64,000 bases of DNA from contig NZ_CP007141.1 in the NCBI RefSeq assembly GCF_000816145.1, forward strand, positions 1,302,001 to 1,366,000, read 5' to 3'. The DNA comes from Pseudothermotoga hypogea DSM 11164 = NBRC 106472 (GTDB lineage Bacteria > Thermotogota > Thermotogae > Thermotogales > DSM-5069). Position numbers and translations under genes: made by a program. Under the pieces are notes generated by a model. It was not told the DNA's origin, did not search any database, and saw only the letters and a program-made list of their open reading frames with translations. This document shows positions 29,591 to 46,631 of the stretch, piece by piece. Numbering within the stretch: the stretch's first letter is position 1; the number at the start of each line of letters is the position of its first letter.

Positions 29591-31556
29591 CTTTTGACCC
29601 CCCGTTTGAGAAGAGGATTGGAAATTCCGTGATCCTGAGCGCAGTGCAACCGTAAGGAACCAGATCGATCTCTTCGATTTTGGCGTTCTTAAGTGTGTTC
29701 TTGTCAACTCGCGGTGGCTCGGCGGCCGAACCGTTCAACAAGGTCCAACCTTCGACTCTGAAAGCCTTGACTTTGATCTTCATCAACGGTTCTTTTCCTT
29801 CGAATGGCGTGGAGTGCTTCGCGACGTTTCTTTCGAGGTTGAACTCGTTGGGCAAGATGAGTGCGTAATTCCAATCGCTCTTGGGATAGACTTCGTAGTC
29901 TGCGAAGGGCTCGTTCCCTTTGATCTTTCTCCATTCCTCCTCTATCTTGAGGCTGAACACCAAGGGTCCTCTCTGAACGAAAGCGGTGTGATCGGACCAA
30001 GGTATGGTCTGGATTTCGAAGTGGAACATGACCTTTACCCTGCTCTTTCCCTTGGGTAAGTGGAGCACAGCGAACTGGGTGTTGTCGTACTCTCTTCTTT
30101 CATCGTTGAAAACCACAGTTGTGCTTCGAGACCAAGAAGGTATCCTCAACATGAGTCTTATTTCTCTGTCCGTGGTGACGAAGAATTCGACGGCGTCATC
30201 GAAGGGATAGTTCGTTTCCTCGACGATCTGAACCGACTCAGAGCCGTTCCATTTGTATTCCAAAACACATGGAGCGTAGGCCATTTTGACGAAGCAATCC
30301 TCAGACGACTTCATCCAGAGACTCTTTGCAAACTTTGGCCAACCTTGATGCATGTTCGCCGTGCAGCAACCAAAGTTCGGTTCTAAACCGAAGATGTTCG
30401 AATCCTCTTTGTTGTTGTACCAGTTCCTCTCTTGAACATTGCACAGAACTTGGTTGACCTGTTGGTCGTACTGGTGTGCGTAAAAACCAGGCCTAATCGT
30501 TGCAGGCAGTGCGTTGTACGCGACCACTTCGAGTCTGTCTGCGAACAAAGGATCTCCGAACACTTTGAAAAGGTTCTCCAAGCTGTACATGAATTCCACG
30601 ACTGCGCACAGTTCGGTGCCCTGTGTTGTCTTTCTACCGTTCAGATGCTCATCACCGCTGAACATCCCGTTCGGTTGACCGTGATGTTTCGTCAGCGATT
30701 CGAGACCTTTCAAGGCGACCGAATGAAAGCGTTCGTCGTGCGAAAGTGCGTATCTCAAGGCGGGTTCCTTGAACGCCATGGCGACGTTCACGACGTGTGT
30801 GGTGTGGTAAATGAAGAACAGTTTCTCGATCTCTTCCTTCGTCAGTCCAACCTTTGCAGGATCACGAAGTAGTTCTTTCCATCCGTTGTACGTTCCGAGC
30901 ATTTTCATGAACTCCTTGGGAAGGTATCTCTCCGTGGGCTCAACGTAAGGAAAGTTCTGGAACAAGCTGGACCAGTCGATGGTCTGTTTCAAGATCTCTT
31001 TTGCCAGTTTCAACAGAAAAGGCTTGTTGGTCCTTTCGTACAGCCAAAAGATCGGAATGAGATTTTCAAATCCTCTCGCCCAAGCCCAGTGTTCGAGAGG
31101 TCTGTACTTCAACTCTTTCGACTGATACTCGAAATATCTGATCATGAAGCTCAAAACCCTCGAATCCTTCGTCGCTTCGTAGTAACTCGTCAGGGCTTTC
31201 AACATGACCATCCTCGGCCACCAATCGACGTTGCTCTTCGGTCCAAAGAAACCTTCCACTGTTTGACTCGAGAGGACTGAGTTCATCCATTTCTCAGCTT
31301 TGCTGATCAGACCTTTCTCAGAGAGGATGTACGCCAGTGGAACCAGCCCGTCACAATAGTAAGGACCTCTTTCCCAGTCTTCCCCATTTCCACCCAACCA
31401 CGCGCTGTTCGGGCCAACATCGGGCCAAATCTCGTCAAGGTGACCCGTGAGACCTTCCGCCTGAAGTTCGAGTTGCTTCTTCAACCATCCGGTTGGTTTC
31501 ACGTATCCCAGATCGATCTCTTTAAACTTCGACACGATTCTCGAACTCAAAGCCAT
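29583..31556 (-). CDS. Second DUF1680/GH127-related glycosidase
   Basis: About 657 residues, of a different DUF1680 subgroup from its neighbour. The equivalents of the catalytic elements are QGTELCAVVEF (Glu and Cys) and NFGCCTANMHQGWPKF (Cys pair). The N-terminal half is an (alpha/alpha)6 toroid and the C-terminal half beta-rich. It is probably also an arabinofuranosidase or a related furanosidase with another linkage preference. The start is unsure: ATG 31556 overlaps the previous stop, but AGAGG is better spaced for the TTG at 31550. Confidence 0.82.
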   Translation of the reverse strand: MALSSRIVSKFKEIDLGYVKPTGWLKKQLELQAEGLTGHLDEIWPDVGPNSAWLGGNGEDWERGPYYCDGLVPLAYILSEKGLISKAEKWMNSVLSSQTVEGFFGPKSNVDWWPRMVMLKALTSYYEATKDSRVLSFMIRYFEYQSKELKYRPLEHWAWARGFENLIPIFWLYERTNKPFLLKLAKEILKQTIDWSSLFQNFPYVEPTERYLPKEFMKMLGTYNGWKELLRDPAKVGLTKEEIEKLFFIYHTTHVVNVAMAFKEPALRYALSHDERFHSVALKGLESLTKHHGQPNGMFSGDEHLNGRKTTQGTELCAVVEFMYSLENLFKVFGDPLFADRLEVVAYNALPATIRPGFYAHQYDQQVNQVLCNVQERNWYNNKEDSNIFGLEPNFGCCTANMHQGWPKFAKSLWMKSSEDCFVKMAYAPCVLEYKWNGSESVQIVEETNYPFDDAVEFFVTTDREIRLMLRIPSWSRSTTVVFNDERREYDNTQFAVLHLPKGKSRVKVMFHFEIQTIPWSDHTAFVQRGPLVFSLKIEEEWRKIKGNEPFADYEVYPKSDWNYALILPNEFNLERNVAKHSTPFEGKEPLMKIKVKAFRVEGWTLLNGSAAEPPRVDKNTLKNAKIEEIDLVPYGCTALRITEFPILFSNGGSKDE

Positions 31557-34500
31557 CACCTCTCGTTGCGTTTCACCAAGACGCAGAAGGTATTCTTCCG
31601 CGGAGCTTCTTCGAAGACGTCGAAAGTGAAACCTCTGTGGACCTTGAAAATCTTTGAGAGTTCTTCCAGCGCTTCATCCTTTGAACTCGCTTCGAGTAAG
31701 AGTCGATAGTCCGATTCGTCCTTCGTCAGCGAAACGAGTCTGAAAGTGCTCGAAGGACAGAACGGCGACGGATCAGGCTGAACGGCAGCGAGCTCGAAGG
31801 GTAACGTGTAGGATACGATCACGTTCAATTCAGAGCAATTTTCTTCTTTCAGCCTCAGCTTTTTGTTGAACACACCCTCCAAAACTTCGAAATCAACTCT
31901 TTGCCCGTTCAACAGTACATCGATGTTTTCTGCTTGCTTGGGGACCCAGACCGAAAAATCCATTCGATACCCCTCTGGAACTTCAGTTTGGTAGACTTCT
32001 TGGAAGTGGTTCTCGTCTGTTCGAATTCTCTTGAACGAAAGTTCAGCTGAAGCTGTTGCCACTTTCAAATTCTTCACCCTGAGCTCGTTCATGTTCCAGG
32101 GGATCTGTGGGGACAAGAGTATCTTTCTATTCAGAAAATTCGCTTCGAAACCCAGCAAACCTTCGACCAAGGGTTGAATCGCCATACTTTCGGACCAAGC
32201 TTGGTGCGGACATATGCCGGACGGCTTGTAAACTTCGCCATGATACACTTCGCTTATGTAACCCTTCGCGAAGTGTCTCGCCGAAAGGAGGTTGCACAGA
32301 AGATGGTTGAAACCGCTGTGCGTCGAACCTGCTTTGAACTCGGCCAAACTGACCCAGCCTGTGAAGAGTGGCCAAACGGTCCCTTCGTGGTAACCGTTCG
32401 GATTGAAGATGCCAGAACTCTTTGAGATGATCCTCACACCCCAGTCGGTTGAGAAATCGTTGCTCGCGTAGGGAATGACTTGTCTTTTCGCGTCCTCAAA
32501 ACCTATCGCACCCAAGTACACCGCCACGGCCGTCATGACGGTGAAATGGTTGAGTCTTCCCCCATTGTGCTTTATTCCAAGGATGTACAAGCCAGTTCTC
32601 TCATCGTAGAATCTTCCGATCGCTCGCTTCGTCCTTTGGAGTGCCTCTTCAGCCTTCCTCTTCACTTCGGAATCGTTCATGAGCTCTGCAAGCTCAATCG
32701 TTCCCTCGAGCGCCGAAAGCCATATGGCGTTCAGATAGAGCTCTGCGTCCGATCCGTAGAGCTTGCCACCCTCGATCCAACCGTGGCCTTCTATCGTGTT
32801 CTCGATCAGTCCATCGTTGTTGCGATCGCTCGATAGACAGAACTCGAACGCCTTAACCACGTTCTTCCAATCTTCTCGAAGGAACTCAACGTCGCCACTG
32901 TGGTTAACGTACCGGTGGAAAACCAAGAGAAAGAGTGGCGTCGAATCGGACGCATCGAAGTGAACTACACCGCTCGAAGTCAGTTCGTGAAAGATCTTTC
33001 CATCTATCCTCTGATACTTCATCAGCAGTTGCAAGTTCTTCTTGACCGTTTCCCAATCACCTATGTCCAGTAGTGCCATGCTTACCCATTCGCTGTCCCT
33101 ACCGAAGTACCAAGCATAGCCGGGTCGTGCCGAGAACCAACCTGGTTTGCTGTTCGCATAACCAGCCATCAATCCTTCACCGATGCCAGGTACAGACGTT
33201 AAGAACTTTATGGTACCTATTTTCGCCAGTTGGAACATCCTGTCGAAGAGTTCATCGTTCGTTTCCAACTGTAGTGTGGTGTTCAGATAGTTCTTCAGAA
33301 AAGATGAGTACTCGATCAGTTCCGCAGTGAAATCGACCTCGTATGGTACTTGCTCTTGCTCCAAGAAACCACCGAGGCAGATGGAAACAGAATCGTCCAC
33401 GTTCGTGCTCATCGTGAAAGTCAGCGAATTTTCATCGTTGGACCATCTCGTCTGCGTGGGAACGTTCATCTTTATGAAGGCTTTCAACATACCGTCGGAG
33501 GTTTGAAAGACCACTTCTCCAGTTTCATCGCAGATGTTGAAGGACTTTCCACAGTTGAAAGCTTCATCGAACGGCCACATGATGCGAGAGTCGATGTTGA
33601 AATCGACTTCCAGCTCCTGAGTCTTTCCGTCTTTGAAATCCAGTTGGATCATGAAGATGGGTTTTTCGAGGCTCACGAAGGATGTGAGTTTGAAGTTCTC
33701 CGTTTCGTGGATGACCCTGTCTGGATAGATGCGGTGGAAGATCTTCTGCTCGGAGATCTTTTTTTCATCTATCTTGAACGAAATACTTTTGACTATTCTG
33801 AACGGATGAACCCAAACTTCATCGAACTCACCGTTTTCTTTCAGATTTGCAAGTATCCTTCGTCCACAGAGGTTCGCGTAATCTTCACCGAAACCTTCGT
33901 GAACGAGCAGTTCGAATGTTTCGAAATCTTTGAGAGGTTTGATCCTGAATTTAGTGAATTCAAGACCACGATCGAGTTTCGTCTCGTTCGAGCAACTGGG
34001 CCAGTAAAGAGCTGGTTTTTTGGAACCACTCAGCATGTACTCGAGGATGTTCTTCACGAACTGCTTCGCCTCGTGGATGTTGTATTGTATGTGAGAACTT
34101 TTGAAATTGAGATATCCACCGATGCACAGGATCTTCTTCGAATCGAGTTCGTATTCCCAGATCAAAGCGTTTTCCCTGATCACAGAGATGTACCTTTTCT
34201 CGACCGCCACGATCCTCGCCTTTTTACCCCTGTAACAGAAGACCTTCTCCGAAGTGTCTTTGTCCAAGACGAGGTAGGTGTAGAAACCACCGTGCAACGA
34301 TTCGAAGATGGGATGGTACTTGTAAGACTGAAAACCTCGTTTGTCCCAAGGATCTTTTGACATCACCAGCTCGAAGGATTCGACCACGTCATTCTGTTCG
34401 ATGATCTTGCTCACCTCAGCTGCAGCTTCTCCGTAGAAGACCGCATGCCGATGTCCCAACACCCTTTGAACGATGTGAGGATCGAAGATGCCATGAAACC

Positions 34501-34591
34501 AAACCACATCCGCCTCGTCAACGTTCTGAACGATCTCGACATTTTCGAGCGACAGATCGAAGAAATCGTTTTTCACCAGCAAGACTCTCAC
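31556..34591 (-). CDS. Large GDE-like (alpha/alpha)6-barrel glycosidase with extra N-terminal domain
   Basis: A 1011-residue protein. Residues 1-200 (MRVLLVKNDFFDL, VVWFHGIFD, AVFYGEAAAEVS) look like a class I amidotransferase/ThuA-like Rossmann domain without a catalytic cysteine. A beta-rich domain follows, then from about 430 an (alpha/alpha)6 barrel like glycogen-debranching and GH63/GH78-type enzymes: YAWYFGRDSEWVSMALLDIGDW, GHGWIEGGKLYGSDAELYLN and NPNGYHEGTVWPLFTGW carry candidate catalytic acids. A C-terminal beta domain ends it. Substrate is unknown; context suggests plant-type oligosaccharides. The GTG start at 34589-34591 follows GGGAG. Confidence 0.72.
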   Translation of the reverse strand: MRVLLVKNDFFDLSLENVEIVQNVDEADVVWFHGIFDPHIVQRVLGHRHAVFYGEAAAEVSKIIEQNDVVESFELVMSKDPWDKRGFQSYKYHPIFESLHGGFYTYLVLDKDTSEKVFCYRGKKARIVAVEKRYISVIRENALIWEYELDSKKILCIGGYLNFKSSHIQYNIHEAKQFVKNILEYMLSGSKKPALYWPSCSNETKLDRGLEFTKFRIKPLKDFETFELLVHEGFGEDYANLCGRRILANLKENGEFDEVWVHPFRIVKSISFKIDEKKISEQKIFHRIYPDRVIHETENFKLTSFVSLEKPIFMIQLDFKDGKTQELEVDFNIDSRIMWPFDEAFNCGKSFNICDETGEVVFQTSDGMLKAFIKMNVPTQTRWSNDENSLTFTMSTNVDDSVSICLGGFLEQEQVPYEVDFTAELIEYSSFLKNYLNTTLQLETNDELFDRMFQLAKIGTIKFLTSVPGIGEGLMAGYANSKPGWFSARPGYAWYFGRDSEWVSMALLDIGDWETVKKNLQLLMKYQRIDGKIFHELTSSGVVHFDASDSTPLFLLVFHRYVNHSGDVEFLREDWKNVVKAFEFCLSSDRNNDGLIENTIEGHGWIEGGKLYGSDAELYLNAIWLSALEGTIELAELMNDSEVKRKAEEALQRTKRAIGRFYDERTGLYILGIKHNGGRLNHFTVMTAVAVYLGAIGFEDAKRQVIPYASNDFSTDWGVRIISKSSGIFNPNGYHEGTVWPLFTGWVSLAEFKAGSTHSGFNHLLCNLLSARHFAKGYISEVYHGEVYKPSGICPHQAWSESMAIQPLVEGLLGFEANFLNRKILLSPQIPWNMNELRVKNLKVATASAELSFKRIRTDENHFQEVYQTEVPEGYRMDFSVWVPKQAENIDVLLNGQRVDFEVLEGVFNKKLRLKEENCSELNVIVSYTLPFELAAVQPDPSPFCPSSTFRLVSLTKDESDYRLLLEASSKDEALEELSKIFKVHRGFTFDVFEEAPRKNTFCVLVKRNER

Positions 34592-34597
34592 CGAGAC

Positions 34598-36901
34598 TCA
34601 CTCCCTCTTCTGATACTCTGACCAAACGTATCTGTATTCGTCCAAGCCTTTTTCAACGCGTGCGGGAAGATGAAATCTCAAGGTTTTGATCTCCATGGGT
34701 TTGAGCGTGATCTGTGTTGACACTTCCTCCAAGACTTCACCCAACAAATTGATCTCTTCGACCTTCACGAAATCAAACTTCGGTTCCATGCTCGCAAAGA
34801 TTTGTTCCTCTTTGGGATTCCAGATCCTCACGATCAGAGAGTTTCCTTCGACGTAAATTGCGCTCAGTTGTATCTCTCCAACGATCTCGAAAGGTTGAAA
34901 GGATTTTGAACCGACTCTTCCTTGAGCCTTTTTTGCAATCATGGGTCTGTTGAATTCCTGAGCCATTCTCAAAGGATCGCACTCTACGTTGAGGGCGATA
35001 CCGTATCTGGTACGAACGCTCTTGGCGAAATTCTCACCATCCCAGGGATCGTACAGGTAAAGAACCGCGTACAGCTCGGACCCATTCCTCACGAACCCTT
35101 GATTCCCCGAATGGAGGAACAACATGTTCGCATCATCGCAACGAAGCTGAACGAACCTGAGGCTCGCGAAGTGGTTCACCACGTCTTCGAAGAACTTCTC
35201 CGAGGTCATCCAATCTCCCTTCGGATAGTACCGATAGTGCTTCAAATTCGGTATACCTCTCTCCACACCGAACGGATAATCGTAGACCAGCTCTTTCAGT
35301 TCTTCTTTCAAATCCATTCGAACCATCAGAGCACCTGCGTAACCTGGTTTGGGTTTTTCGATCACTTCGATCTCAGTTTCTATTTCCAGATAATCGTTCA
35401 GCTCGCCGAATCTGAAACTCTGTCGGCATTCGTAAGGTCCAACTTTCACACTCGTTCTCACGTCGATCAGGTCTGGCAGGATCCTCTTCAAAGTCGGTTT
35501 TGACAAGGGGACAACTTCGTATCCTTCGCAGATCAGCTCGTTCAGTTCGTAGACTTTCCCGTTCGACTCGGTCCTCACGATCCCGTTGGGCTGAACTGTC
35601 CACTGGGCACCGTGCCAGAGGACTTTGATTCCTTCCTCCGTTTCCCACGCTTCGATTCTGCAAGAGCCATTCTGTTCGTCTAAAGCGAAGACACCGAGCG
35701 CTGGCACATCCTCAACTGCCACGATCTGATCTGTTCCTTCGACACGCACATAGCCTTTTCGCTTCCACGGTAAGGGATTGAAAACGCACAGCTGAGATGT
35801 CCCGTCGACGTTCTTTGAGAACATGTCCATGTATCTTTCGACAATTGGAGTGGCCAAACTTTTCGCAGTCTCAAGGTAGACCTTGCCGATGTCTCCACAA
35901 AAACCTTCACACTCGTCTATGTCGTGGGCTTGCGAGATCATCAAGAGCCTTCTCGCTTCTTCGATTTCCCAGTCTGGATAGGCAGACCACTGAGGTGATA
36001 ATCCGTTCACGTACGCTATGCTTGCCAGGATCTGCGCATCGTTGATGGTGTTTTCGATCTTTCTTCTCTCGATCCTCAACGTGTCACCGTTTTTGCCTAA
36101 GGAAAGTCCGTGGTAAAGGTCTGTAGATTTGAAACGAACGATACGTTCAGGTTTTCGTAGATCGACTATTTCGGAAGGTCTTATGGGTTGGAATTCGAAG
36201 ATCTGACGCAACCTTTCCAGTTCCTTTTCGATCAACTCGGACCTACACATCCACTTTGGTGAGTCCATCAGCTCGAGCCACTGTATCAAGAAGAGCTCCT
36301 CGTTCTTCTCAACGTGTTTCGATATCGTTCTTTCAAGATCTTCTGGCCATTGGTGAACACACAGGTCGGTGAAAGATAAGGCACGTATCTTCGAACCATC
36401 CGCGCCTTCCCAAAAGAGAGTTGGTTCTTCGAACTTTGGAACGCTCGGTGTGTGCCAGGTTTCTTGAAAGAAGAAGCAGTAAACTTCGTAACCGGCTTGG
36501 AGCAAGAGCTGTGGAAGCTGAGGAAAGAAATAGAACTCCTCTTCCCAAAAGAGCTTTGGACGAACGCCGAAGAGTCTCTCACAAACTCTGACTCCGAAGA
36601 TTATCTGTTGGACGTTGCTTTCTTCATCTATGAGATGTGGATAAGGTTGAGTGTACGTTCCTGCAGCTATTTCGATCTTTCCTTGTCGAACGGCTTCTTT
36701 CAATCTTTCGAACGTGTCTGGATGTTTGAAGGCCAAATATTCATAACCGATGGCGTCGAAGTTGATGGCGCCTTTCAAACCCTTTTGCACAAGTTTCAGC
36801 ATGTCTTTCGTGGAATTCTCAAGAGTCCCAATTCCCCACATCCATTCCATGTCGATCCAGTGCATGTGGTTGCCGAAGGTGTAGAAGATCTTTTTCTTCA
36901 T
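34598..36901 (-). CDS. Divergent GH38-like glycosidase (alpha-mannosidase relative)
   Basis: A 767-residue protein whose plan is that of GH38: N-terminal (beta/alpha) domain with HWIDMEWMW at 14-22, a central helical domain with SQAHDIDE, and long C-terminal beta domains. However, GH38 normally has His-x-Asp as the first zinc ligands and an Asp nucleophile. Here the first His position is Trp15 (His14 lies one residue earlier), and the nucleophile position falls in FWEEEFYFFPQLPQLL, as Glu122. It may have altered chemistry or be a new subfamily. The ATG at 36899-36901 has GAGGG upstream. Confidence 0.65.
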   Translation of the reverse strand: MKKKIFYTFGNHMHWIDMEWMWGIGTLENSTKDMLKLVQKGLKGAINFDAIGYEYLAFKHPDTFERLKEAVRQGKIEIAAGTYTQPYPHLIDEESNVQQIIFGVRVCERLFGVRPKLFWEEEFYFFPQLPQLLLQAGYEVYCFFFQETWHTPSVPKFEEPTLFWEGADGSKIRALSFTDLCVHQWPEDLERTISKHVEKNEELFLIQWLELMDSPKWMCRSELIEKELERLRQIFEFQPIRPSEIVDLRKPERIVRFKSTDLYHGLSLGKNGDTLRIERRKIENTINDAQILASIAYVNGLSPQWSAYPDWEIEEARRLLMISQAHDIDECEGFCGDIGKVYLETAKSLATPIVERYMDMFSKNVDGTSQLCVFNPLPWKRKGYVRVEGTDQIVAVEDVPALGVFALDEQNGSCRIEAWETEEGIKVLWHGAQWTVQPNGIVRTESNGKVYELNELICEGYEVVPLSKPTLKRILPDLIDVRTSVKVGPYECRQSFRFGELNDYLEIETEIEVIEKPKPGYAGALMVRMDLKEELKELVYDYPFGVERGIPNLKHYRYYPKGDWMTSEKFFEDVVNHFASLRFVQLRCDDANMLFLHSGNQGFVRNGSELYAVLYLYDPWDGENFAKSVRTRYGIALNVECDPLRMAQEFNRPMIAKKAQGRVGSKSFQPFEIVGEIQLSAIYVEGNSLIVRIWNPKEEQIFASMEPKFDFVKVEEINLLGEVLEEVSTQITLKPMEIKTLRFHLPARVEKGLDEYRYVWSEYQKRE

Positions 36902-36911
36902 GCAAGATCCC

Positions 36912-39251
36912 TCAAATCTTTCTGAACGTGATCTTCAAATTCTTCGTTCCTGTCGTTTCGACTCTGTACAGAAAATCGTCCAGTCTCGAGACCGTCAAAT
37001 CTGGCTCCGTTCTCACGGCGAAGCCTTCGGGGCAGAAAAAGTAGATCACGCTGTCGTTGACGTTCTCGCACTCGAGACGGAACGAGTTCTCACTTTTTAT
37101 TTCACTTAAAATTGCTGGTTTCGCGTTGGAAAGACCGAATTTCAAATTTGTGTACTCCAAAGCGTAGTCAATACCTTGCAAATTGTATCTGACTGAGAAT
37201 TCGTCTTCGAGGACAAATTCGAACGGAGTTTCTGCAACGATTTCCCCAAATCGTGGCTTCTTCGGTTCGAAAGTCACCTTGATCGGTTTCCGCGACAAAT
37301 TCTTGAAACGGTATTCAAAGCTCTTACCTTTTCTCACGAACTCGATCCTCACCGTACTGTCCGCGACCTTCAGATTGTCGATGACGAACCTTTCCCAGTG
37401 TATGGGTACTCTCGGTCTGAAACGCAGAATCTTTTCGAACGCATCGACCTCTAAACCGAACGTTCCCTCCATAACAGACCAAAGAATAGGACCAACGGAG
37501 AAGAGTTGATGGGGAACTGCCGTGATGATTGGAGCAAAAACGTCTCCAGAGAAAAGCTCGGAGAGATGGGTTGAATTCTCCTCCGAAAATGCTCTGAGCG
37601 CGGCTTTCACGATCTGCCATCCTTCAAGGATATGGTCCGTTTCGTACGCAGCTTTGGCAACGAACCCGTTTATGAAGTACCAAACGCTACCGAGGTTGTA
37701 GTTTATCGGGTCGTAATGCTCACATACGTCTATGGATCTGGCACCCCACCTCGTCATGACATCGCTTCTCAACATCTTCCGCATGGATCGCTTCGATCTG
37801 TCTGGATCGAGCACACCGAAAGAGATTGGAAAGGCAGGCCAAGGGGTCAGATAAGGGAAGAGTTGATCCGAAGCGTTGATGGACAGAAAATACGAACCTT
37901 TGACCTCGTCCCAGAAGAATCTCTCGATGGAGGTTTCAACCTTCTCGATCTTTTCTCTCAGCTCACGGCAGACTTCTTCTTCCCCCATTCTTTCGAAGAC
38001 TCTTTCCAACTTCTTCATGGCAGCAAGATAGATCCCACTCGTGTATATCTCGTACTTCGATCTTCTGAAGTCACTGATTTCCAGCGCTCCAAGACCGGCT
38101 CTGTAGTTGACTATCAAACCAGTCTCATCGCACAACGAGTCGTAAAACTTCAGGGCCTTCAAGATTTTTTCTCTGTACTCTTCAACGAACTTCGTATCGC
38201 CTGTATGCAAAACGTAGTTCGCGCACGCGAGCAAGAACCACGCTGTCGTGTCCGCGTGCAAAAAGGCAAAACCTTTGTACTTGTTGAACCAATCGATGAA
38301 ACCGTGAGATTGAGATATCTCGTGTGGGATCCTACCTTCCTCGTTCTGGAAAGAGAAATAGAAAGCGAGGCTCTTTTTCACCGTCTCCACATCGTTGAAT
38401 CCACAGATCGAAAGCGAGTTTATGGAAGCATCACCCGCAAAGAACCATGCGAAGCCAGCTCTGGTGGACTTGCCCGAGGGACCAACGCCGGCGATCAGAC
38501 CTTCACCGAGGTTTGGATTCTCGATCAGTCCCTTCAGCATCGATAACTTACCCCATTCGAAGAATTCGTTCAGTTCTTCGTCTGGCGTTTCAATTCTCAG
38601 AGTGCTCGATGAATAGTTTCTGTAGTGTTCGTTGGCTTTCTCAATCTCTTGATCCAGACCCTCCTCGATCTTCAGCAACTCTTGGCAGGCCTTCTTGCCC
38701 ATCGCACCACCGACGATGCTCACCACGAAACGATTCACACCTCGAGAAACATGCAACTTGAAGGTGTGAGGATTGTCAGAGAAGGCGTGATCGCCTTCTT
38801 TTGAATACTTGATGGCTCCAACGGATCGAACGATCGCAGAAAAGCTGTCGGTGGGTTCGGAGATCAAAAATCCGTTCAAGGAATCGGACCAATGACAATA
38901 CTGACCACCGATCGCGCCGGGCCACATGAGATTCAGTTCAGGCTTGAAGGAAACGATCATCTCCAAATCTGTGGAAGCGTTGACATCGTAGATCAGAAAA
39001 CAACCTGGAAAATCTATCGGAGCAAAAGCCCGCTCTTCGAGTTCAAAAAGTGGATGTGCGTAGGAAATCTTCACTATCTCGGGTCTGAAGACGATATCGT
39101 TTGTGAACAGAGTCAAATCGTGCGTGTCCATGGTCTTGGGAATCCAAACGCTCGTCTTGAGATTGGCGATCAGCTTGACGGGCCAGCTCCAAACTTCCCA
39201 ACCTTGTCCGAAGAAACCCATCATGCAGGAACGCTTACCGATGCTCTCCAA
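36912..39251 (-). CDS. GDE-like (alpha/alpha)6-barrel glycosidase
   Basis: About 779 residues: an N-terminal beta-sandwich with FFGQGWEVWSWPVKLIANL, then an (alpha/alpha)6 barrel with GFAWFFAGDASINSLSICGF, ADTTAWFLLACANYV and PINYNLGSVWYFING. It is clearly paralogous to the 31556-34591 protein but lacks that protein's N-terminal domain. No export signal, so it should act on imported sugars. The frame has no ATG; TTG at 39251 has CAGAGG nearby. The coding frame continues upstream as NLKTRQRLY to a run of seven A at 39277-39283, beyond which an ATG with a good ribosome site lies one frame away (see findings). Confidence 0.7.
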   Translation of the reverse strand: MESIGKRSCMMGFFGQGWEVWSWPVKLIANLKTSVWIPKTMDTHDLTLFTNDIVFRPEIVKISYAHPLFELEERAFAPIDFPGCFLIYDVNASTDLEMIVSFKPELNLMWPGAIGGQYCHWSDSLNGFLISEPTDSFSAIVRSVGAIKYSKEGDHAFSDNPHTFKLHVSRGVNRFVVSIVGGAMGKKACQELLKIEEGLDQEIEKANEHYRNYSSSTLRIETPDEELNEFFEWGKLSMLKGLIENPNLGEGLIAGVGPSGKSTRAGFAWFFAGDASINSLSICGFNDVETVKKSLAFYFSFQNEEGRIPHEISQSHGFIDWFNKYKGFAFLHADTTAWFLLACANYVLHTGDTKFVEEYREKILKALKFYDSLCDETGLIVNYRAGLGALEISDFRRSKYEIYTSGIYLAAMKKLERVFERMGEEEVCRELREKIEKVETSIERFFWDEVKGSYFLSINASDQLFPYLTPWPAFPISFGVLDPDRSKRSMRKMLRSDVMTRWGARSIDVCEHYDPINYNLGSVWYFINGFVAKAAYETDHILEGWQIVKAALRAFSEENSTHLSELFSGDVFAPIITAVPHQLFSVGPILWSVMEGTFGLEVDAFEKILRFRPRVPIHWERFVIDNLKVADSTVRIEFVRKGKSFEYRFKNLSRKPIKVTFEPKKPRFGEIVAETPFEFVLEDEFSVRYNLQGIDYALEYTNLKFGLSNAKPAILSEIKSENSFRLECENVNDSVIYFFCPEGFAVRTEPDLTVSRLDDFLYRVETTGTKNLKITFRKI

Positions 39252-39282: not shown

Positions 39283-39996
39283 TCATCCTTCTTTCACCTC
39301 GTGGGTTCGAACGTAGTTTCTTACGTCCTCTACATCAAGCTCTATGATTCTCTCGTAGGCTTCTAACGCTTTCGGAAGATCTCTGTTCAGTATCGCTTCG
39401 CACAGCTCCCTGTGGTAAGGTAAACCTCTATCACCGAAGTCCGTCAGGCCGAGTGGTGAGCGCCAGAGGATGGAAAGGATGGGAAAGAGAGTTTCAAAGA
39501 TGCTCAAAAGGATCTTGTTGTTCGCGATCTCGAATATCTTTCTGTGGAATCTTTCATCGGTCTCGGCAAGATGCTCATGGCTCTCTATGGATTTCTCAAG
39601 ATCTGAGAACACGAACTTCAATTCGTTCAGCTGTTCTTCGGTGGCGTTGAGAACGGCAAGTCTTATCGCACCACTTTCTAAACACCTTCTGACTTCCAAC
39701 AGTTCCAGTATGTCTCTCGGCTCGTCGGACTTGACTTTCAGAGAGATGTTGAAGGAGATGTTCAAGCCGTTCTTTTTAATCACGTAAGTGCCACTCCCAT
39801 GTATCGTCTTGGTGATGCCTTCCAGTTCTAAGAGCCTCAACGCCTCTCTCACGATCGTTCGACTCACGTTGAAAGTTTCCGCGAGTTTGTTCTCTCCCGG
39901 CAGTTTTTCGATGTTCTCCTCCAAAATCATCTTCTTGATCGCCTCAGCGACCAGATTCGCCTTTCTTTCTTTGCTCGTCTCGATCGTACGAATCAC
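39283..39996 (-). CDS. GntR-family transcriptional regulator, FadR (FCD) subfamily
   Basis: A 237-residue regulator. The N-terminal winged helix has the GntR pattern (LPGENKLAETFNVSRTIVREALRLLELEGITKTIHGSGTYV, about 32-73). The C-terminal helical FCD domain has the metal and effector-binding pattern (ELLEVRRCLE, HRKIFEIANN, YHRELCEAIL). It lies in the middle of the transporter-glycosidase array, so it most likely represses that array until a sugar or uronate-like effector binds. The GTG at 39996 lies inside GGGGGTG, so the exact start is unsure. Confidence 0.9.
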   Translation of the reverse strand: MIRTIETSKERKANLVAEAIKKMILEENIEKLPGENKLAETFNVSRTIVREALRLLELEGITKTIHGSGTYVIKKNGLNISFNISLKVKSDEPRDILELLEVRRCLESGAIRLAVLNATEEQLNELKFVFSDLEKSIESHEHLAETDERFHRKIFEIANNKILLSIFETLFPILSILWRSPLGLTDFGDRGLPYHRELCEAILNRDLPKALEAYERIIELDVEDVRNYVRTHEVKEG

Positions 39997-40051: not shown

Positions 40052-40894
40052 TTATCTCTCATAACCCGAGGACAATTTGATGCCCTGAAGGAGCCATTTC
40101 TGTGCCACAAAGTAAACTACGATCAAAGGAATCGACGAAAGAGTGGCGGCCGCAAGCTGTATCGGATAGTCTATCGTGTACTGCGTTGCAAACATCGCTA
40201 TCCCGACCTCTATCATTCTCATCTCTTTGCTCCTGGTCACTATGAGAGGCCACAGAAAAGACTTCCATGTACCGAGAAAAGTGAATGTCGCAACGGTTGC
40301 GAGGACAGGTTTACACAGCGGCAGTATTATTCTCCAGAAGATCGTAAACTCTGAAGCGCCATCTATCCTTGCCGCATCTTCTAAGCTCTGTGGTAGCGTG
40401 AGCATGTACTGTCTGGTCAAAAACATACCCCATATGTTCCCGAGCGACGGAATTATCAACGCCATGTAGGTATCTATCCACCCCAGGCTGCGAAGTATTA
40501 TGAAACCAGGTATGAGCGTAACCACACCGGGTAGCATCATGAAACCTATGAATATTCTGAAGATGGTATCCCTGCCGGGGAAATTCAACCTCGATAGTGC
40601 GTACCCTCCCATGGATACCAGCAAAAGCTGACCCGCAAGAACACAGATGGACACAAAGACTGTGTTGAAGATGTATCTACCCCAAGGTTGGGACTTCCAC
40701 ATTTCAACGTAATTTTGAAATCTTGGAGTGGTTGGGAACAACTTCGGTGGGAAACTGTATATCTCGAACTGTGCCATGAGAGATGAAGAAACCATGACAA
40801 TGTACGGCAACAGCGTGGAAATGGCTAAAACTGTCAACAGGAATATCGAAACGACTTTCAACGAGATTCGTGAAAATGTTCTTTTCGCAATCAA
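40052..40894 (-). CDS. MalG-type (CUT1) sugar ABC transporter permease
   Basis: A 280-residue inner-membrane protein with six hydrophobic segments. The cytoplasmic coupling loop EDAARIDGASEFTIFWRIILPL is the EAA motif that docks the ATPase. The TTG at 40892-40894 is chosen because AAGGAG lies eight bases upstream; a longer in-frame N-terminus lies inside the upstream gene. No ATPase gene is in the array, so a shared MsmX/UgpC-type ATPase elsewhere is expected. An out-of-frame alternative tail follows the stop. Confidence 0.9.
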   Translation of the reverse strand: MIAKRTFSRISLKVVSIFLLTVLAISTLLPYIVMVSSSLMAQFEIYSFPPKLFPTTPRFQNYVEMWKSQPWGRYIFNTVFVSICVLAGQLLLVSMGGYALSRLNFPGRDTIFRIFIGFMMLPGVVTLIPGFIILRSLGWIDTYMALIIPSLGNIWGMFLTRQYMLTLPQSLEDAARIDGASEFTIFWRIILPLCKPVLATVATFTFLGTWKSFLWPLIVTRSKEMRMIEVGIAMFATQYTIDYPIQLAAATLSSIPLIVVYFVAQKWLLQGIKLSSGYER

Positions 40895-40911: not shown

Positions 40912-43134
40912 TCAAAAGTACTGTTGCCAGCTTTCTTTTCCAAAGAGTTTGAACTGGAAATACGTCAGAACCAGCAAAACAAGGAAGAGCATCCAAGACT
41001 GTGCTGCGGCGTATCCCATTCTCAGCTCTATCCAAGCTGCTTCCCATATGTGATAGAAGACCACGTCCGTACTTCTCAAAGGACCACCCTGCGTGAGTAC
41101 GTAAACAGGGGTGAAGACTTGGAACGAACCTATGACGCTCGTGATGAACACGAACATGGTGGTTGGTTTCAAGAGAGGAAGCGTTATCTTGCTGAATCTT
41201 TGGAATCTGTTCGCACCATCTATACTTGCAGCTTCGTAGAATGCTTGTGGTATGCTTTGAAGACCCGCCAAGAAGATCACCATTTGACTTCCCAAAGACT
41301 GCCAGATACTCAACAACATTATGGCTATCAAAGCAGTGTTGGGAGACGTCAACCATGGGATTTTCGGGACACCAAAGATACCCAGTATGTAGTTCAGGAG
41401 GCCGAAATCTCTGTTGAATATCCACCTCCACACGATCGTCGTCGAAACACCCGCCGTGACCACGGGAAGATAGTATACAGTTCTCAACAGTGCCATACTT
41501 CTCGTAGGTCTGTTGACTGCGATTGCGACTAACAGAGAAAAGAACATGCTGATCGGGACCTGCAGAGAAAATAGAGCGGTGTTCTTCATAGCGTTCCAAA
41601 AGAGTTTGTCACGGAAGAGCTCTCTGAAGTTGTCCAAACCGACGAAAGGTTTTGCGGGATCCACCACGTTCCACCTTTGGAAAGCCAGTATCATGGAGAA
41701 GGCAACCGGTCCAACTGCCCACCAAATCAAATGGATGAGTGCGGGTGCCAAAAAGATGTATCCGATCAACGTGGCTCTGAGGAACCGAGGTCGTTCTGCG
41801 TTTTTGATCGCAAAAGAGAGTACCCACAGGAACATGACAAAGACGGCAACCACGATCATTCCCAAGAGCCTCACCTTTGCGGCACTGTTCACAAGCGGCG
41901 TTTCTTCCTTCAGTGCGATAAAGGTTCGCTCACCCGAGGTCATCTTCCAGTAAGTGTAACGAACTTTATTTACGTGAACTTGTCCCACTTCAACATTTCC
42001 GATTTCGTATTTTGATTTCCAGTTTTCTAACGTCTGCGAAAGTCCTCCCCGAAAAGTCGATAAAACGATTCTCCCGTTATGACTCAACATGACTTGAACG
42101 TTCATCAGTTTCTTGACATCTTCGAAACGTCGATTTTCCAAGTAGGTGTTGCCCCAATCGCTCAGCACCTTCGCGGTTGATTCAACGTAGTTCGCGTACT
42201 CTCTCTGCATCGTTCCAGGTATTTGAAAAATGAAGATGTACAGAACGGTCAAGAACAACGGAAAAGAAAACAATGGTAAGAAGCGAAGACCCCTTGCACC
42301 TTTTCTTGCAGCGACGAGTATTCCCACCACCAAAGAAATCGAAGAAACGAGGAACAGGAAGAAGTCGATGAGTTGCAATCGGAAAATACTCCTCTTGAAT
42401 GGCTCAATCTGTAAGCAATTTATGATAAAACCTTTGAGATTCCATTCTTGGAAATCGAAGATTGGTATCACAGTCAACAACTTCCCATCCGCAGTTAGAT
42501 GGATTTCGGGTGAATGACTCTCCGAAGCTTTCTTCAGAACATCTTTGTCCACAGCGAATCCTTCACCGAAGATCTCTCCAGCTTTTGATACGAAGAACAC
42601 CTTCCGTTGAGTCAGTCGCTCGATCTGAGAGAAAAACTCTTTCGGGAGCATGGTTCCTGACACGAAGACTAAATCCTCACCTTCCGAAGACTGAAGGATC
42701 GTCGCAGTCCTGATCTGTAGACCTTCGCCCAGAGGGTAGAGATCCGTTAGAAAAGTCCCATAGTCTTCGTAGAGAACTGTTTGGACCAAAAGATCGTTGT
42801 ACAAATCATCGGCAGGTAGCTTGCCAAGATCTTTGACCACGTTTCCAGCCAGATCCATCCAGATGACGAAAGAACAGAATTGCAGGAACTTTTGATTCAA
42901 CTCATCCAACCTCGAAATGGACAAATCTTCCTTCAAAAGGATGTCAGATACCCTTTTCTCGAAACTGTACAAGAAGCTGTTCAAAACGAAGGAGCTGGTC
43001 CTCACAGATTCTTTTTCCAGATCTTCTTTGTATTTCATGACGCTCTGTTCCGTGTAAAAAATGGAAACAACAAAAAGGACAGCGGTGAAAAATACCACAG
43101 ATGAGATCGCATACATTTTCGCTTTCTTGCTCAC
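40912..43134 (-). CDS. MalF-type sugar permease fused to a large sensor-like N-terminus
   Basis: A 740-residue protein. The last 290 residues are an ordinary CUT1 permease with the EAA loop EAASIDGANRFQRFSKITLPLL starting near 634. The first 450 are extra: TM at about 8-27, an extracytoplasmic domain to about 258, two TM segments at about 259-281 and 289-308, a second smaller extracytoplasmic domain, and a TM at about 426-446. The outer domains look like Cache/PAS-type ligand sensors (FVIWMDLAGNVVKDLG). The GTG start at 43132-43134 has GGGGTG seven bases upstream. Intact reading through both parts argues against a sequencing artefact. Confidence 0.85.
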   Translation of the reverse strand: MSKKAKMYAISSVVFFTAVLFVVSIFYTEQSVMKYKEDLEKESVRTSSFVLNSFLYSFEKRVSDILLKEDLSISRLDELNQKFLQFCSFVIWMDLAGNVVKDLGKLPADDLYNDLLVQTVLYEDYGTFLTDLYPLGEGLQIRTATILQSSEGEDLVFVSGTMLPKEFFSQIERLTQRKVFFVSKAGEIFGEGFAVDKDVLKKASESHSPEIHLTADGKLLTVIPIFDFQEWNLKGFIINCLQIEPFKRSIFRLQLIDFFLFLVSSISLVVGILVAARKGARGLRFLPLFSFPLFLTVLYIFIFQIPGTMQREYANYVESTAKVLSDWGNTYLENRRFEDVKKLMNVQVMLSHNGRIVLSTFRGGLSQTLENWKSKYEIGNVEVGQVHVNKVRYTYWKMTSGERTFIALKEETPLVNSAAKVRLLGMIVVAVFVMFLWVLSFAIKNAERPRFLRATLIGYIFLAPALIHLIWWAVGPVAFSMILAFQRWNVVDPAKPFVGLDNFRELFRDKLFWNAMKNTALFSLQVPISMFFSLLVAIAVNRPTRSMALLRTVYYLPVVTAGVSTTIVWRWIFNRDFGLLNYILGIFGVPKIPWLTSPNTALIAIMLLSIWQSLGSQMVIFLAGLQSIPQAFYEAASIDGANRFQRFSKITLPLLKPTTMFVFITSVIGSFQVFTPVYVLTQGGPLRSTDVVFYHIWEAAWIELRMGYAAAQSWMLFLVLLVLTYFQFKLFGKESWQQYF

Positions 43135-43188: not shown

Positions 43189-44478
43189 TCATTCCACTCT
43201 GCCCTCTTTTATAGCCTTGTCGATCTGTTCAGCCGCCCAATCGAACGCTTGTTTTACCGTTTCGCCCTTGATTATGATCCTGTCGACGGCTTCCGCCCAT
43301 GTTCTTTCGAAGAGAGGTCTGTAGAACTTCGTTCTCGAACCCACTGGTACCCTCGCATAACTCAGCATCTCTATGAAGGCTGCATCTATGGGGCTCGCCT
43401 TGGCCTGCTCCTGAGCTATTTTCTTGTTGGCAGATATGGCCAGCCCACCGACCAAACACCTCTCTCTTTGTGCGTATTCACTGGAGAGCCATGCTGCCAG
43501 CTCGACGGCTAACTTCTTGTTTGCGACGTTGGCTGGAACAGCCCAACCGGAAGCGTAGGTCACAGTAACGTTTTGAACACCCACAGCACACGGGAGCGGA
43601 GCAACACCTGCATCGATCGGTGCGCCCTGTTCTATCTGCTTCTTCACGCTGATCCAGAACCACCTACCAGTGATGACCATGGCAACTCTTCCAGTGAAGA
43701 AGAGTGACGAAGCACCTCCAAGGGCTGCTGCTTCCTCTGGAGTTGGCGCATAGCCTTTCTTCAAAAGGTCGACGTAGAAGCTGTAGGTCTTCACGTTCGT
43801 CTCGCTGTTGAGATAACCTGTGGTTTGAGTGAAATCAGGTGAGAAGACGTCTCCTCCGCCAGCCCACAACAACGGTACGGCGACACCGACCCAGCTCGGG
43901 AAAGCAAATCCCCAAACATCGTTCTTACCGTCTTTATCGGTATCTTTGGCGAGCTTTGAGACAGTCTCCTCGAATTCTTTCAATGTCCATCCCTTTGCGG
44001 ATGGGTAAGGTACTCCGTACATGTCGAACAGTTTTTTGTTGTAGAACACTGCGACGGGACTTGTGTCTTTGGGGAGTGCATAAATAGACCTGCCGAGTTT
44101 GAAAATGTCAACGAGAACTTCGAAGTATTCGCTCAGATTCGTTCCGCTAACTCCTTCCGAGGCCAACCCAGACAAATACGGTGCCAGGTTCAAGAGAAGC
44201 TTTTCTTCCGCATACCTCGGCACCATTTCTGCGTCCAACAGGAAGACATCTGGAGGAGTTCCGGCCGCTATGTCTGTCAGGATCTTTTGGTAATAGTTCT
44301 GAGGTATGGGCTCATAGACAACCTCAACGTCTGGATGCGTTCTCATGAATTCTGCGAGGATCTTTTCGTCCAGCTGTGCCTCGAGTGCTCCCGCCCAGCT
44401 TGCGACTCTGAGTTTCGTCTTACCGAAGCCCAGGGTGACAAGCGCTAAGATCACGGCGATGACGACGAGCTTCCTCAT
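43189..44478 (-). CDS. Extracellular sugar-binding protein, CUT1 family
   Basis: A 429-residue type 2 periplasmic binding protein with signal peptide MRKLVVIAVILALVTLGFG. The core blocks TKLRVASWAG, EFMRTHPDVEVVYEPIPQNYYQKILTDIAAGTPPDVFLLD and the tryptophan-rich GGGDVFSPDF region fit oligosaccharide binding. The ATG at 44476-44478 follows GGGGGAGGTAAGGTT. It is the promoter-proximal gene of the 17 kb array and has the inverted repeat at 44538-44572 upstream. Confidence 0.92.
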   Translation of the reverse strand: MRKLVVIAVILALVTLGFGKTKLRVASWAGALEAQLDEKILAEFMRTHPDVEVVYEPIPQNYYQKILTDIAAGTPPDVFLLDAEMVPRYAEEKLLLNLAPYLSGLASEGVSGTNLSEYFEVLVDIFKLGRSIYALPKDTSPVAVFYNKKLFDMYGVPYPSAKGWTLKEFEETVSKLAKDTDKDGKNDVWGFAFPSWVGVAVPLLWAGGGDVFSPDFTQTTGYLNSETNVKTYSFYVDLLKKGYAPTPEEAAALGGASSLFFTGRVAMVITGRWFWISVKKQIEQGAPIDAGVAPLPCAVGVQNVTVTYASGWAVPANVANKKLAVELAAWLSSEYAQRERCLVGGLAISANKKIAQEQAKASPIDAAFIEMLSYARVPVGSRTKFYRPLFERTWAEAVDRIIIKGETVKQAFDWAAEQIDKAIKEGRVE

Positions 44479-44537
44479 AACCTTACCTCCCCCGTTTTGG
44501 AGGTCCATCAGATGGCCTCCGTTGTTTTTCCCGATTG

Positions 44538-44897: not shown

Positions 44898-46631
44898 TCA
44901 CAGCTCTTCCCAGAGCCTTCTTATCTCGTCCGAATACTTCGAAAAGATCTCGAGAAGCTCGGGGGAGAATTGTCTTGGCAAAGTTTTTTCATCACCCTCA
45001 ACGATGATTCTCAGCGCCTCTTCGTGGTTCAAAGCTTTCTTGTACGGTCTGTCGGAGCGAAGGGCGTCGTACACATCCACCAAGCCAACGATCTGCGCTT
45101 CTATGGGGATTTCTCCATCTTTCAGACCAAAAGGATAACCCGAACCATCGTACCTTTCGTGGTGGTACAGCACGATGTTCCTTGCAACTTTCAGTTTCTC
45201 ATCGTCTCCCACCATTTCCGCACCCCAAAGGACGTGTTTCTTCACGATCTCGAATTCCTCGTAGGTCAACCTTCCTGGCTTGTTCAGTATCTCCTTTGGC
45301 ACTTTGATCTTTCCGATGTCGTGCAGTGGTGCGTAGAGTTCTATCTGCTCAACGAGCTCTCGTGGTAGGTTCAACTTCTCCGCCAAGAACTTCGAAAGTT
45401 TTTTCACCCTTTGGACGTGTTCACCCGTCGGCTCGTCGAAGTTCTCAATCACGGCGCTGAGCTTCTCTGAAAGCAAATTGTAAGCGTACCTTATTTCCTC
45501 TTCTTCCAATCTCAATCTTTCGTACGCTTCTTCGATCTCTCTCTGCGAAGCTTCGAGTTGATCGTAACTTGCTTTGAGTTCCTGGGTCTGGGAATCTATG
45601 ATCGTCACCATGTCGGAAAGCTCGCTTGCGAGCATCTTCATTTCGTACGTCGGTTCTTCGATTTCTTCGATCTCGAAACCTCTTCCTGAAAGATAGTTTC
45701 TCGCCGCCTCGACGATGTTTTCCATGGGCTGGACCACAGTTTTTTTCAGTGCTTTTCTCAATCTTCGAACTGCGAACAGGTTCACGATGAAAACACTTGA
45801 CACGACACTCAGAGGAGCTATCAGCGAGATCAAGATTTCGTCAAGCAAAGAATCTTCAACGACCACGTAAGTTCCCGCTATGGAAGGTTTTGCAACGTAG
45901 TTCGTGAGACCAACCCTACCAGACGCGATCTTCTCTAATCCAACAAAATTGAGATGGGAAAAGGTCTTCAGTGTTCCCTTCTTTGCCAGGATTTGTCCCA
46001 TTTCATCGACGATGTAAGAACGATCGATGAGTAAAGCCTCAGCCACGTGGCTCGCAAGCAGATCCAGTGCAAGCACACCGAGCAAGTTTCCATCTTTATC
46101 GTACACAGCCTTGGCTAAGGCGATGGTGGGTTCTTTGAGAAAAGCGTGCAAGAAAGGTTTCACTAACACGTGACCTTCAGGATTCTGCGCCGCAGCTTGG
46201 TACCACGGTCTTTTTCTCGGATCGTAATCTGGTCCGTAGTCGTATTTTGGATAGGTGAACATCTTGCCGTCAGATCGACCGAACGCTGGGTAGGAAACCA
46301 AAGGATGATAATGTTCGTAGATTTGTTGAAGTAAATTCACAACGCGTTCTTCGTTTTCGAAGATTTCGGTTTGTTCGGAAAAGACGTTCAGAAGTTTTCC
46401 AAAGGATTCCACCGCGTTCGCCCAGTTTCTTTCCAGTTCAATGATCCGCACGAACTGTTGGTTTTGAACGATGTGGTAGACGAAAAGAAACGTGATAACG
46501 AAGAGTACAAAAGATAACAACGCTGCGGACAGAAAAACGATCTTGGTGATGCTCTTTTTCAGATGGGCTTCCAACTTGGGAGGATTCGTTGTTCGATCAA
46601 AATCAGATTCTTTATTCTTGAAAGTCTTCAT
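44898..46631 (-). CDS. Membrane Cache-sensor HD-GYP phosphodiesterase
   Basis: A 577-residue protein: TM1 at about 30-53, an extracytoplasmic double-Cache domain with RKRPWYQAAAQNPEG near 140 as in chemoreceptors, TM2 at about 268-290, a coiled coil (about 330-390) and a C-terminal HD-GYP domain with HDIGKIKVP and HHERYDGSGYP. HD-GYP proteins hydrolyse cyclic di-GMP or related cyclic dinucleotides, and all metal-binding His/Asp residues of the signature are present. The ATG at 46631 follows GAGGGGACGG. It borders the glycan array and may relay the presence of a ligand to motility or biofilm control. Confidence 0.9.
   Translation of the reverse strand: MKTFKNKESDFDRTTNPPKLEAHLKKSITKIVFLSAALLSFVLFVITFLFVYHIVQNQQFVRIIELERNWANAVESFGKLLNVFSEQTEIFENEERVVNLLQQIYEHYHPLVSYPAFGRSDGKMFTYPKYDYGPDYDPRKRPWYQAAAQNPEGHVLVKPFLHAFLKEPTIALAKAVYDKDGNLLGVLALDLLASHVAEALLIDRSYIVDEMGQILAKKGTLKTFSHLNFVGLEKIASGRVGLTNYVAKPSIAGTYVVVEDSLLDEILISLIAPLSVVSSVFIVNLFAVRRLRKALKKTVVQPMENIVEAARNYLSGRGFEIEEIEEPTYEMKMLASELSDMVTIIDSQTQELKASYDQLEASQREIEEAYERLRLEEEEIRYAYNLLSEKLSAVIENFDEPTGEHVQRVKKLSKFLAEKLNLPRELVEQIELYAPLHDIGKIKVPKEILNKPGRLTYEEFEIVKKHVLWGAEMVGDDEKLKVARNIVLYHHERYDGSGYPFGLKDGEIPIEAQIVGLVDVYDALRSDRPYKKALNHEEALRIIVEGDEKTLPRQFSPELLEIFSKYSDEIRRLWEEL

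Follow-up and report, generated by a model that had tools for sequence, protein, structure and literature searches.

Introduction

The MalF permease of Escherichia coli has 8 transmembrane segments (TMs), and the P2 loop of both E. coli and Thermotogales MalF sits between TM3 and TM4; the MalF loops and MalG inserts of Thermotogales are already known, but not the N-terminal extension considered here (PMC2246101). In the census of Cache domains, the outputs are signal-transduction domains and ion channels, and the words "transporter" and "permease" are absent from the main text (PMC4822843). A review of transporter modulation mentions several fused regulatory domains and points to many others that are unstudied, among them the PAS domains of some MFS transporters (PMC10710835). 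No Cache-permease fusion was found in the literature that we searched, a search outside which most subscription papers lay. Here we describe a candidate for such a fusion, encoded in a stretch of 64,000 nucleotides of Pseudothermotoga hypogea DNA (hereafter, the window).

Results

Organization of the Fused Permease

The gene occupies positions 40912..43134 on the minus strand, on which the segments of the permease and the other genes of the operon given below also lie, and consists of an uninterrupted frame of 740 codons with a TGA stop and a GTG start preceded by a GGGGTGA ribosome-binding site. The first 449 residues of the protein form an N-terminal part that contains four membrane helices and two extracytoplasmic domains, and a complete MalF-type (CUT1) core follows. 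Ahead of this core, hydropathy peaks at residues 4-33, 249-280, 282-309, and 413-447. Together with the structural model, these peaks place TM1 at 43054..43113 (residues ~8-27), continuous with the long alpha-1 helix of domain 1 (helix 3-68 in the model), TM2 at 42310..42390 (residues ~249-275), and TM4 at 41809..41889 (residues ~416-442), leading directly into the first TM of the core. TM3 (42211..42279, residues ~286-308), placed by hydropathy and charges, is preceded by a positively charged cytoplasmic turn. The extracytoplasmic stretches comprise ~215 residues (domain 1, 42409..43053, residues ~28-242) and ~103 residues (domain 2, 41902..42210, residues ~309-411). The three predicted cytoplasmic segments contain 3, 4, and 4 K+R vs. 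0-1 D+E, a charge bias that agrees with this topology. The original prediction, which had claimed about 450 residues with four extra membrane segments before an intact core, was borne out by the frame, the hydropathy profile, Pfam, and the relatives.

The core (40915..41787, residues 450-740) was recognized by the Pfam model BPD_transp_1 (PF00528) over residues 531-723 only (54.1 bits for a cut-off of 26.4) and by the NCBIfam UgpA profile, which aligned from residue 447 with 140 bits, under its own cut-off; the MalF profile gave 77 bits. The EAA loop EAASIDGANRFQRFSKITLPLLKP (residues 634-657), with its conserved G and LP, is intact and conserved among relatives, whose cores are 68-89% identical. 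With a BPD_transp_1 core, an EAA loop, and a sugar-binding protein (SBP) and a MalG partner encoded alongside, the fused permease is of the CUT1/MalF type.

The genome of P. hypogea itself has both Thermotogales-type oversized permeases, MalF with a P2 loop and MalG with an insert. The P2-type MalF (genome positions 1406761-1408467) matched the core of the fused permease (residues 497-732, 31% identity, E 1e-28), whereas the N-terminus had no significant match to it (best E 0.92 over 20 residues). Similarity of the extension to a MalF P2-type loop, the possibility against which the first reading of the sequence had to be checked, was thus not found, and the position in the chain differs too; we rejected a P2-type loop because the extension precedes the core and lacks similarity to this MalF. 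Among the MalG proteins of the same genome, MalG1 (L030, 1404320 region) carries a hydrophilic insert that is very large and looks helical, like the inserts reported for MalG of Thermotogales (PMC2246101). In a 754-residue MalG (L031:1499-3763, at ~2082 kb), whose gene adjoins a MalF-type gene, the first two membrane helices are separated by a large insert that is reminiscent of those inserts.

Fold of the N-Terminal Extension

An AlphaFold model of the fused permease was built with a 12-row alignment. The extension reached a pLDDT of ~85-90 (~84-93 for domain 1), vs. 30-50 for the core, so that this full-length model was not used for contacts between the module and the core. In the model, the elements of domain 1 are, in order, the long helix 3-68, a helix, a hairpin (89-104), a helix, and three strands (129-162), followed by a helix (167-175), a strand, a helix (197-206), and three strands up to residue 242, after which TM2 begins. 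Among the top-ranked structures of a Foldseek comparison with the PDB were the dCache sensor domains of KinD, PctC, TlpA, vpHK1S, PctD, Tlp3, and TlpC, the first rank being an integrative model of WalK. The best dCache matches were KinD (4jgo, E 4e-6, TM-score over the target 0.53-0.59) and PctC (5ltv, 1e-5), and the matches to solved dCache domains covered E-values of 4e-6 to 1e-4 and target TM-scores of ~0.4-0.6. Foldseek prints these matches without query ranges, and we assigned them to residues 28-242 from the target lengths (200-270 residues) and the secondary structure. For domain 1, predicted to lie outside the membrane between two TMs, a dCache fold with a long helix and a pair of PAS-like lobes is well supported by the model.

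By sequence, the Pfam Cache models matched none of the 12 members of the family, which points to a detection limit rather than a disproof, and the extension had no match among all Pfam families or among PDB sequences. The hhalign comparison with Thermotogota dCache domains was not significant alone (probability 3%, E 0.015), with a collinear alignment of 144 columns (residues 91-232) including a conserved P...W motif near the end. Since Pfam, PDB sequences, and hhalign gave nothing significant, the N-terminus was identified by fold comparison only.

Domain 2, modelled alone (residues 284-449), had a pLDDT of 81 and the order long helix, helix, two strands, helix, four strands, and TM4, which is that of PAS and single-Cache domains. 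No Foldseek match fell below 1e-3: the best one, a model of the Bacillus subtilis chemoreceptor McpB, had an E-value of 2e-3, and roadblock and profilin folds scored alike. From these models, domain 2 is likely single-Cache/PAS-like. The two extracytoplasmic Cache/PAS-like domains that had been claimed are therefore supported, the dCache domain strongly by its fold; for the single-Cache/PAS domain, the support from topology is moderate and that from Foldseek weak. The alignment of the N-terminus has no more than 13 invariant columns, so that no common ligand motif is visible.

Distribution and Origin of the Fusion

The same architecture, for which a search had been suggested, was recovered with an N-terminal profile of the 12 members (A2), which detected 15 loci from four families, spread over 14 of the 103 Thermotogota genomes searched; each of them is fused and free of stops. 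It is also present at 3 further loci of a sister subfamily, B. This profile never detected the extension as a stand-alone protein among the 103 genomes. The 11 other aligned loci have a one-piece frame of 740-783 aa with an overall identity of 36-65%, and the extension, 449-492 residues long, was never lost across the four families. The N-terminal part alone, used as query, retrieved full-length fused relatives with 40-50% identity within the same family and more distant ones across the phylum. Weak profile matches in four other genomes (G015, G020, G040, and G041) were very short segments and were rejected; the frames read in G020, G040, and G041 (L063, L066, and L064, respectively) encode unrelated proteins. 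One metagenome genome (G017) has two copies of the fused transporter operon (L027 and L028).

A search of the 103 genomes with the core gave a sharp boundary, in that every relative with at least 50% core identity carries the extension, contig-cut fragments apart. At core identities of at least 69%, the frames were all of 741-798 aa, except for two fragments of 165 aa (beginning at contig base 1) and 189 aa; at 51-53%, corresponding to subfamily B, they were of 723 and 732 aa, plus one contig-cut frame of 609 aa. Below 48%, the permeases among the matches listed were mostly of 290-340 aa, with some of 411-438 aa and one of 576 aa, and a partial match with 49% core identity (G011:C97) lay in a frame of 433 aa. 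We also observed a separate group of CUT1 permeases with frames of ~411-429 aa, ~120 residues longer than usual (G056:C4:40137, G039:C18:38033, and G033:C1:2937733).

Subfamily B is a divergent sister subfamily that is always fused at its 3 loci, with permeases of 722-725 aa (L023:2161-4329 and L024:2460-4637; also L062:56-1810). In two genomes (G005 and G010), it is present in the same locus as the first fused copy, with its own SBP and MalG, and its N-terminus aligns weakly with that of the first subfamily (A). In the core tree including ordinary permeases, A (100/100) and B (100/99) formed one group (96/93), in agreement with a single origin of the extension. The data are consistent with a gain that occurred once, within Thermotogota. 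Among the 84,980 species' genomes scanned, the extended form was found in Thermotogota only, the five matches outside being cores only, with 27-29% identity; since its seeds were two short core motifs, the scan may have missed fusions of Cache domains to a strongly divergent permease core elsewhere.

Genomic Context and Transported Sugar

The gene directly upstream of the fused permease encodes an extracellular sugar-binding protein (SBP_bac_1, 43189..44508; PF01547, 133 bits). The MalG-type partner (40052..40894, 280 aa; PF00528, 79 bits) starts probably with a TTG, 17 nt past the stop of the fused gene; this TTG at 40894, behind AAGGAGTGATC, is probably the true start rather than that of the 515-aa frame of the mechanical listing. 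The transporter is adjoined by a GntR/FCD family regulator (39283..39996; PF07729 and PF00392), with a homologue in several related operons, and then by three glycoside hydrolases: an MGH1-like enzyme of the (alpha/alpha)6 type (36912..39251; PF22422, 46 bits), an alpha-mannosidase-like enzyme of family GH38 (34598..36901; PF01074, 63 bits), and a large GH116/MGH1-like enzyme (31556..34591; PF04685 and PF22422) with homologues in L022, L026-L029, and L041. The operon in the window contains no ATPase gene; CUT1 systems commonly share an ATPase encoded elsewhere. Directly upstream of the SBP gene, we noticed an HD-GYP phosphodiesterase with its own dCache domain (44898-46631), which has no homologue in the other neighborhoods compared; it was rejected as a partner, its linkage not being conserved.

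The order SBP, fused MalF, MalG was observed in all relatives with flanking sequence at hand, and MGH1-like and GH116-like hydrolases, DUF2961 (GH172), and GH127 or GH38 are encoded around the related operons. At three loci, DUF2961 genes directly follow MalG (L025:11440-12462, L026:6111-7142, and L041:8214-9254), a possible lead to the transported sugar. Two reports give D-arabinan or alpha-fructofuranosyl linkages as the substrates of DUF2961/GH172 enzymes (PMC10115798 and PMC8605356), and these activities suggest that the cargo is probably an oligosaccharide with D-arabinan or alpha-fructofuranosyl-type residues. As judged from gene content, the importer probably takes up an oligosaccharide that the GH38, GH127, GH172, and MGH1/GH116-type enzymes of these operons degrade.

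Discussion

The best reading of the extension is, in our view, that of a receptor-like allosteric part built into an ABC importer and putatively gated by a ligand. The importer would have gained, in this order, TM1, the dCache domain, TM2, TM3, the single-Cache/PAS-like domain, and TM4, joined directly to the first TM of the core. Binding of a ligand outside, or the occupancy of the binding protein, would shift the long Cache helices and TM2-TM4; since TM4 runs straight into core TM1, we propose that it makes the MalF/MalG/ATPase core more or less ready, either to receive the loaded binding protein or for ATP hydrolysis. The module could then act as an allosteric dimmer on import, like the cytoplasmic regulatory domains of other ABC importers, but from the outside. 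We see an even chance that a ligand outside the cell, or else the state of the SBP, moves the Cache helices and alters the readiness of the importer via TM2-TM4. From the single origin of the fused form and its retention in many species, the importer may be able to sense an external cue directly. We tentatively put forward, short of considering it probable, a putative receptor-transporter, which would be the first ABC importer with a permease under the direct control of an extracytoplasmic Cache receptor module of its own. If true, an external signal would change sugar import without any kinase, chemoreceptor, or gene-regulation step.

The module could instead be a docking platform for the SBP of the operon, functionally equivalent to the P2 loop of MalF, that grips or orients the loaded SBP without sensing a free ligand. 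Cache domains can serve as protein-binding surfaces, the P2 loop contacts the SBP in E. coli MalF, and the SBP gene lies directly upstream of the fused gene in all relatives with upstream sequence at hand. Identities to the window's proteins were 60-85% for the SBP, 67-89% for MalG, and 68-89% for the core, vs. 13-56% for the dCache domain and 15-44% for domain 2; the N-terminal and core trees split the same main groups, and the identities of the SBP and of the Cache domains correlate across pairs (r 0.92), although those of all operon genes do so. However, between clades with cores 68-73% and SBPs 60-66% identical, the Cache domains retain only 13-23% identity, whereas the P2 loops, used as a yardstick, retain 40-43% at core identities of 67-70%, in a comparison matched by core identity and not by species, the species pairs differing in part. 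The extension thus outpaces a loop that contacts the SBP, a weak argument that leans toward a sensor or a scaffold and away from tight docking. Ordinary CUT1 permeases, moreover, work with SBPs without such a module. The divergence rates lean weakly in favor of sensing, and we consider docking rather unlikely.

It is improbable that the module reports outward, the permease being a co-receptor that relays transport or SBP occupancy to a membrane partner such as a chemoreceptor or a kinase. Cache domains are usually part of signaling proteins (PMC4822843), and the neighboring gene (44898-46631) encodes an HD-GYP protein with a dCache domain. However, the module has no cytoplasmic output domain, and the other neighborhoods compared contain no homologue of the HD-GYP gene, so that the linkage to this partner is not conserved.

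A structural or folding scaffold, involved in membrane assembly or stability without regulatory meaning, would account for the fast divergence and the few invariant residues. The rapid change of the Cache domains, a pattern expected of sensor input domains, would indeed also fit a loosely constrained scaffold. Nevertheless, 449-492 residues were kept intact across four families with no loss, and the related ordinary permeases need none, leaving the scaffold a small probability. Finally, an artefact, with two genes joined by a sequencing error, is practically discarded, as the frameshift or stop between the parts envisaged in the original prediction was looked for without any being found, and the same one-piece frame is present across the 15 loci, in independent assemblies of many species.

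Returning to a receptor-like module, a natural Cache-MalF fusion of single origin would lend itself directly to the questions of whether the rate of an ABC importer can be set by a sensor domain outside the cell and how the movement of sensor helices couples to a transporter core. For annotation, the operon of the fused permease also represents a new oligosaccharide system of Thermotogota.

Compared with known systems, the fused permease shares with the CUT1 permeases of the MalF/UgpA type (E. coli MalF and UgpA) the core with its EAA loop and the order SBP-MalF-MalG, but its core starts behind a Cache module of 449 residues. Thermotogales MalF1/MalF2, with the P2 loop, and MalG1/MalG2, with a hydrophilic insert of ~500 residues, are also oversized by extra extracytoplasmic parts (Noll et al., 2008; PMC2246101); these are loops inside the permease, unlike the N-terminal extension. 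With the dCache sensors KinD, PctA/PctC, TlpA, and Tlp3, domain 1 shares a long N-terminal helix, two alpha/beta lobes, and flanking TMs. The output of dCache chemoreceptors and kinases is a kinase, a chemoreceptor, or a cyclase, whereas that of the module would be an ABC permease, and the sequence divergence of domain 1 puts it beyond the Pfam Cache models. Each half is known, and the combination of Cache and MalF is apparently undescribed. To our knowledge, the fused regulatory domains in known examples of ABC importers sit inside the cell, whereas the Cache module is predicted to be extracytoplasmic. The likeness to ABC importers and transporters with such fusions lies in the addition of a regulatory domain onto the transporter (PMC10710835). 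The alpha2delta subunits of voltage-gated calcium channels (PMC9901441) offer a works-like analogy with dCache domains on a membrane transport protein; alpha2delta is a separate subunit of an animal ion channel, whereas the Cache module is fused in cis to a subunit of a bacterial importer.
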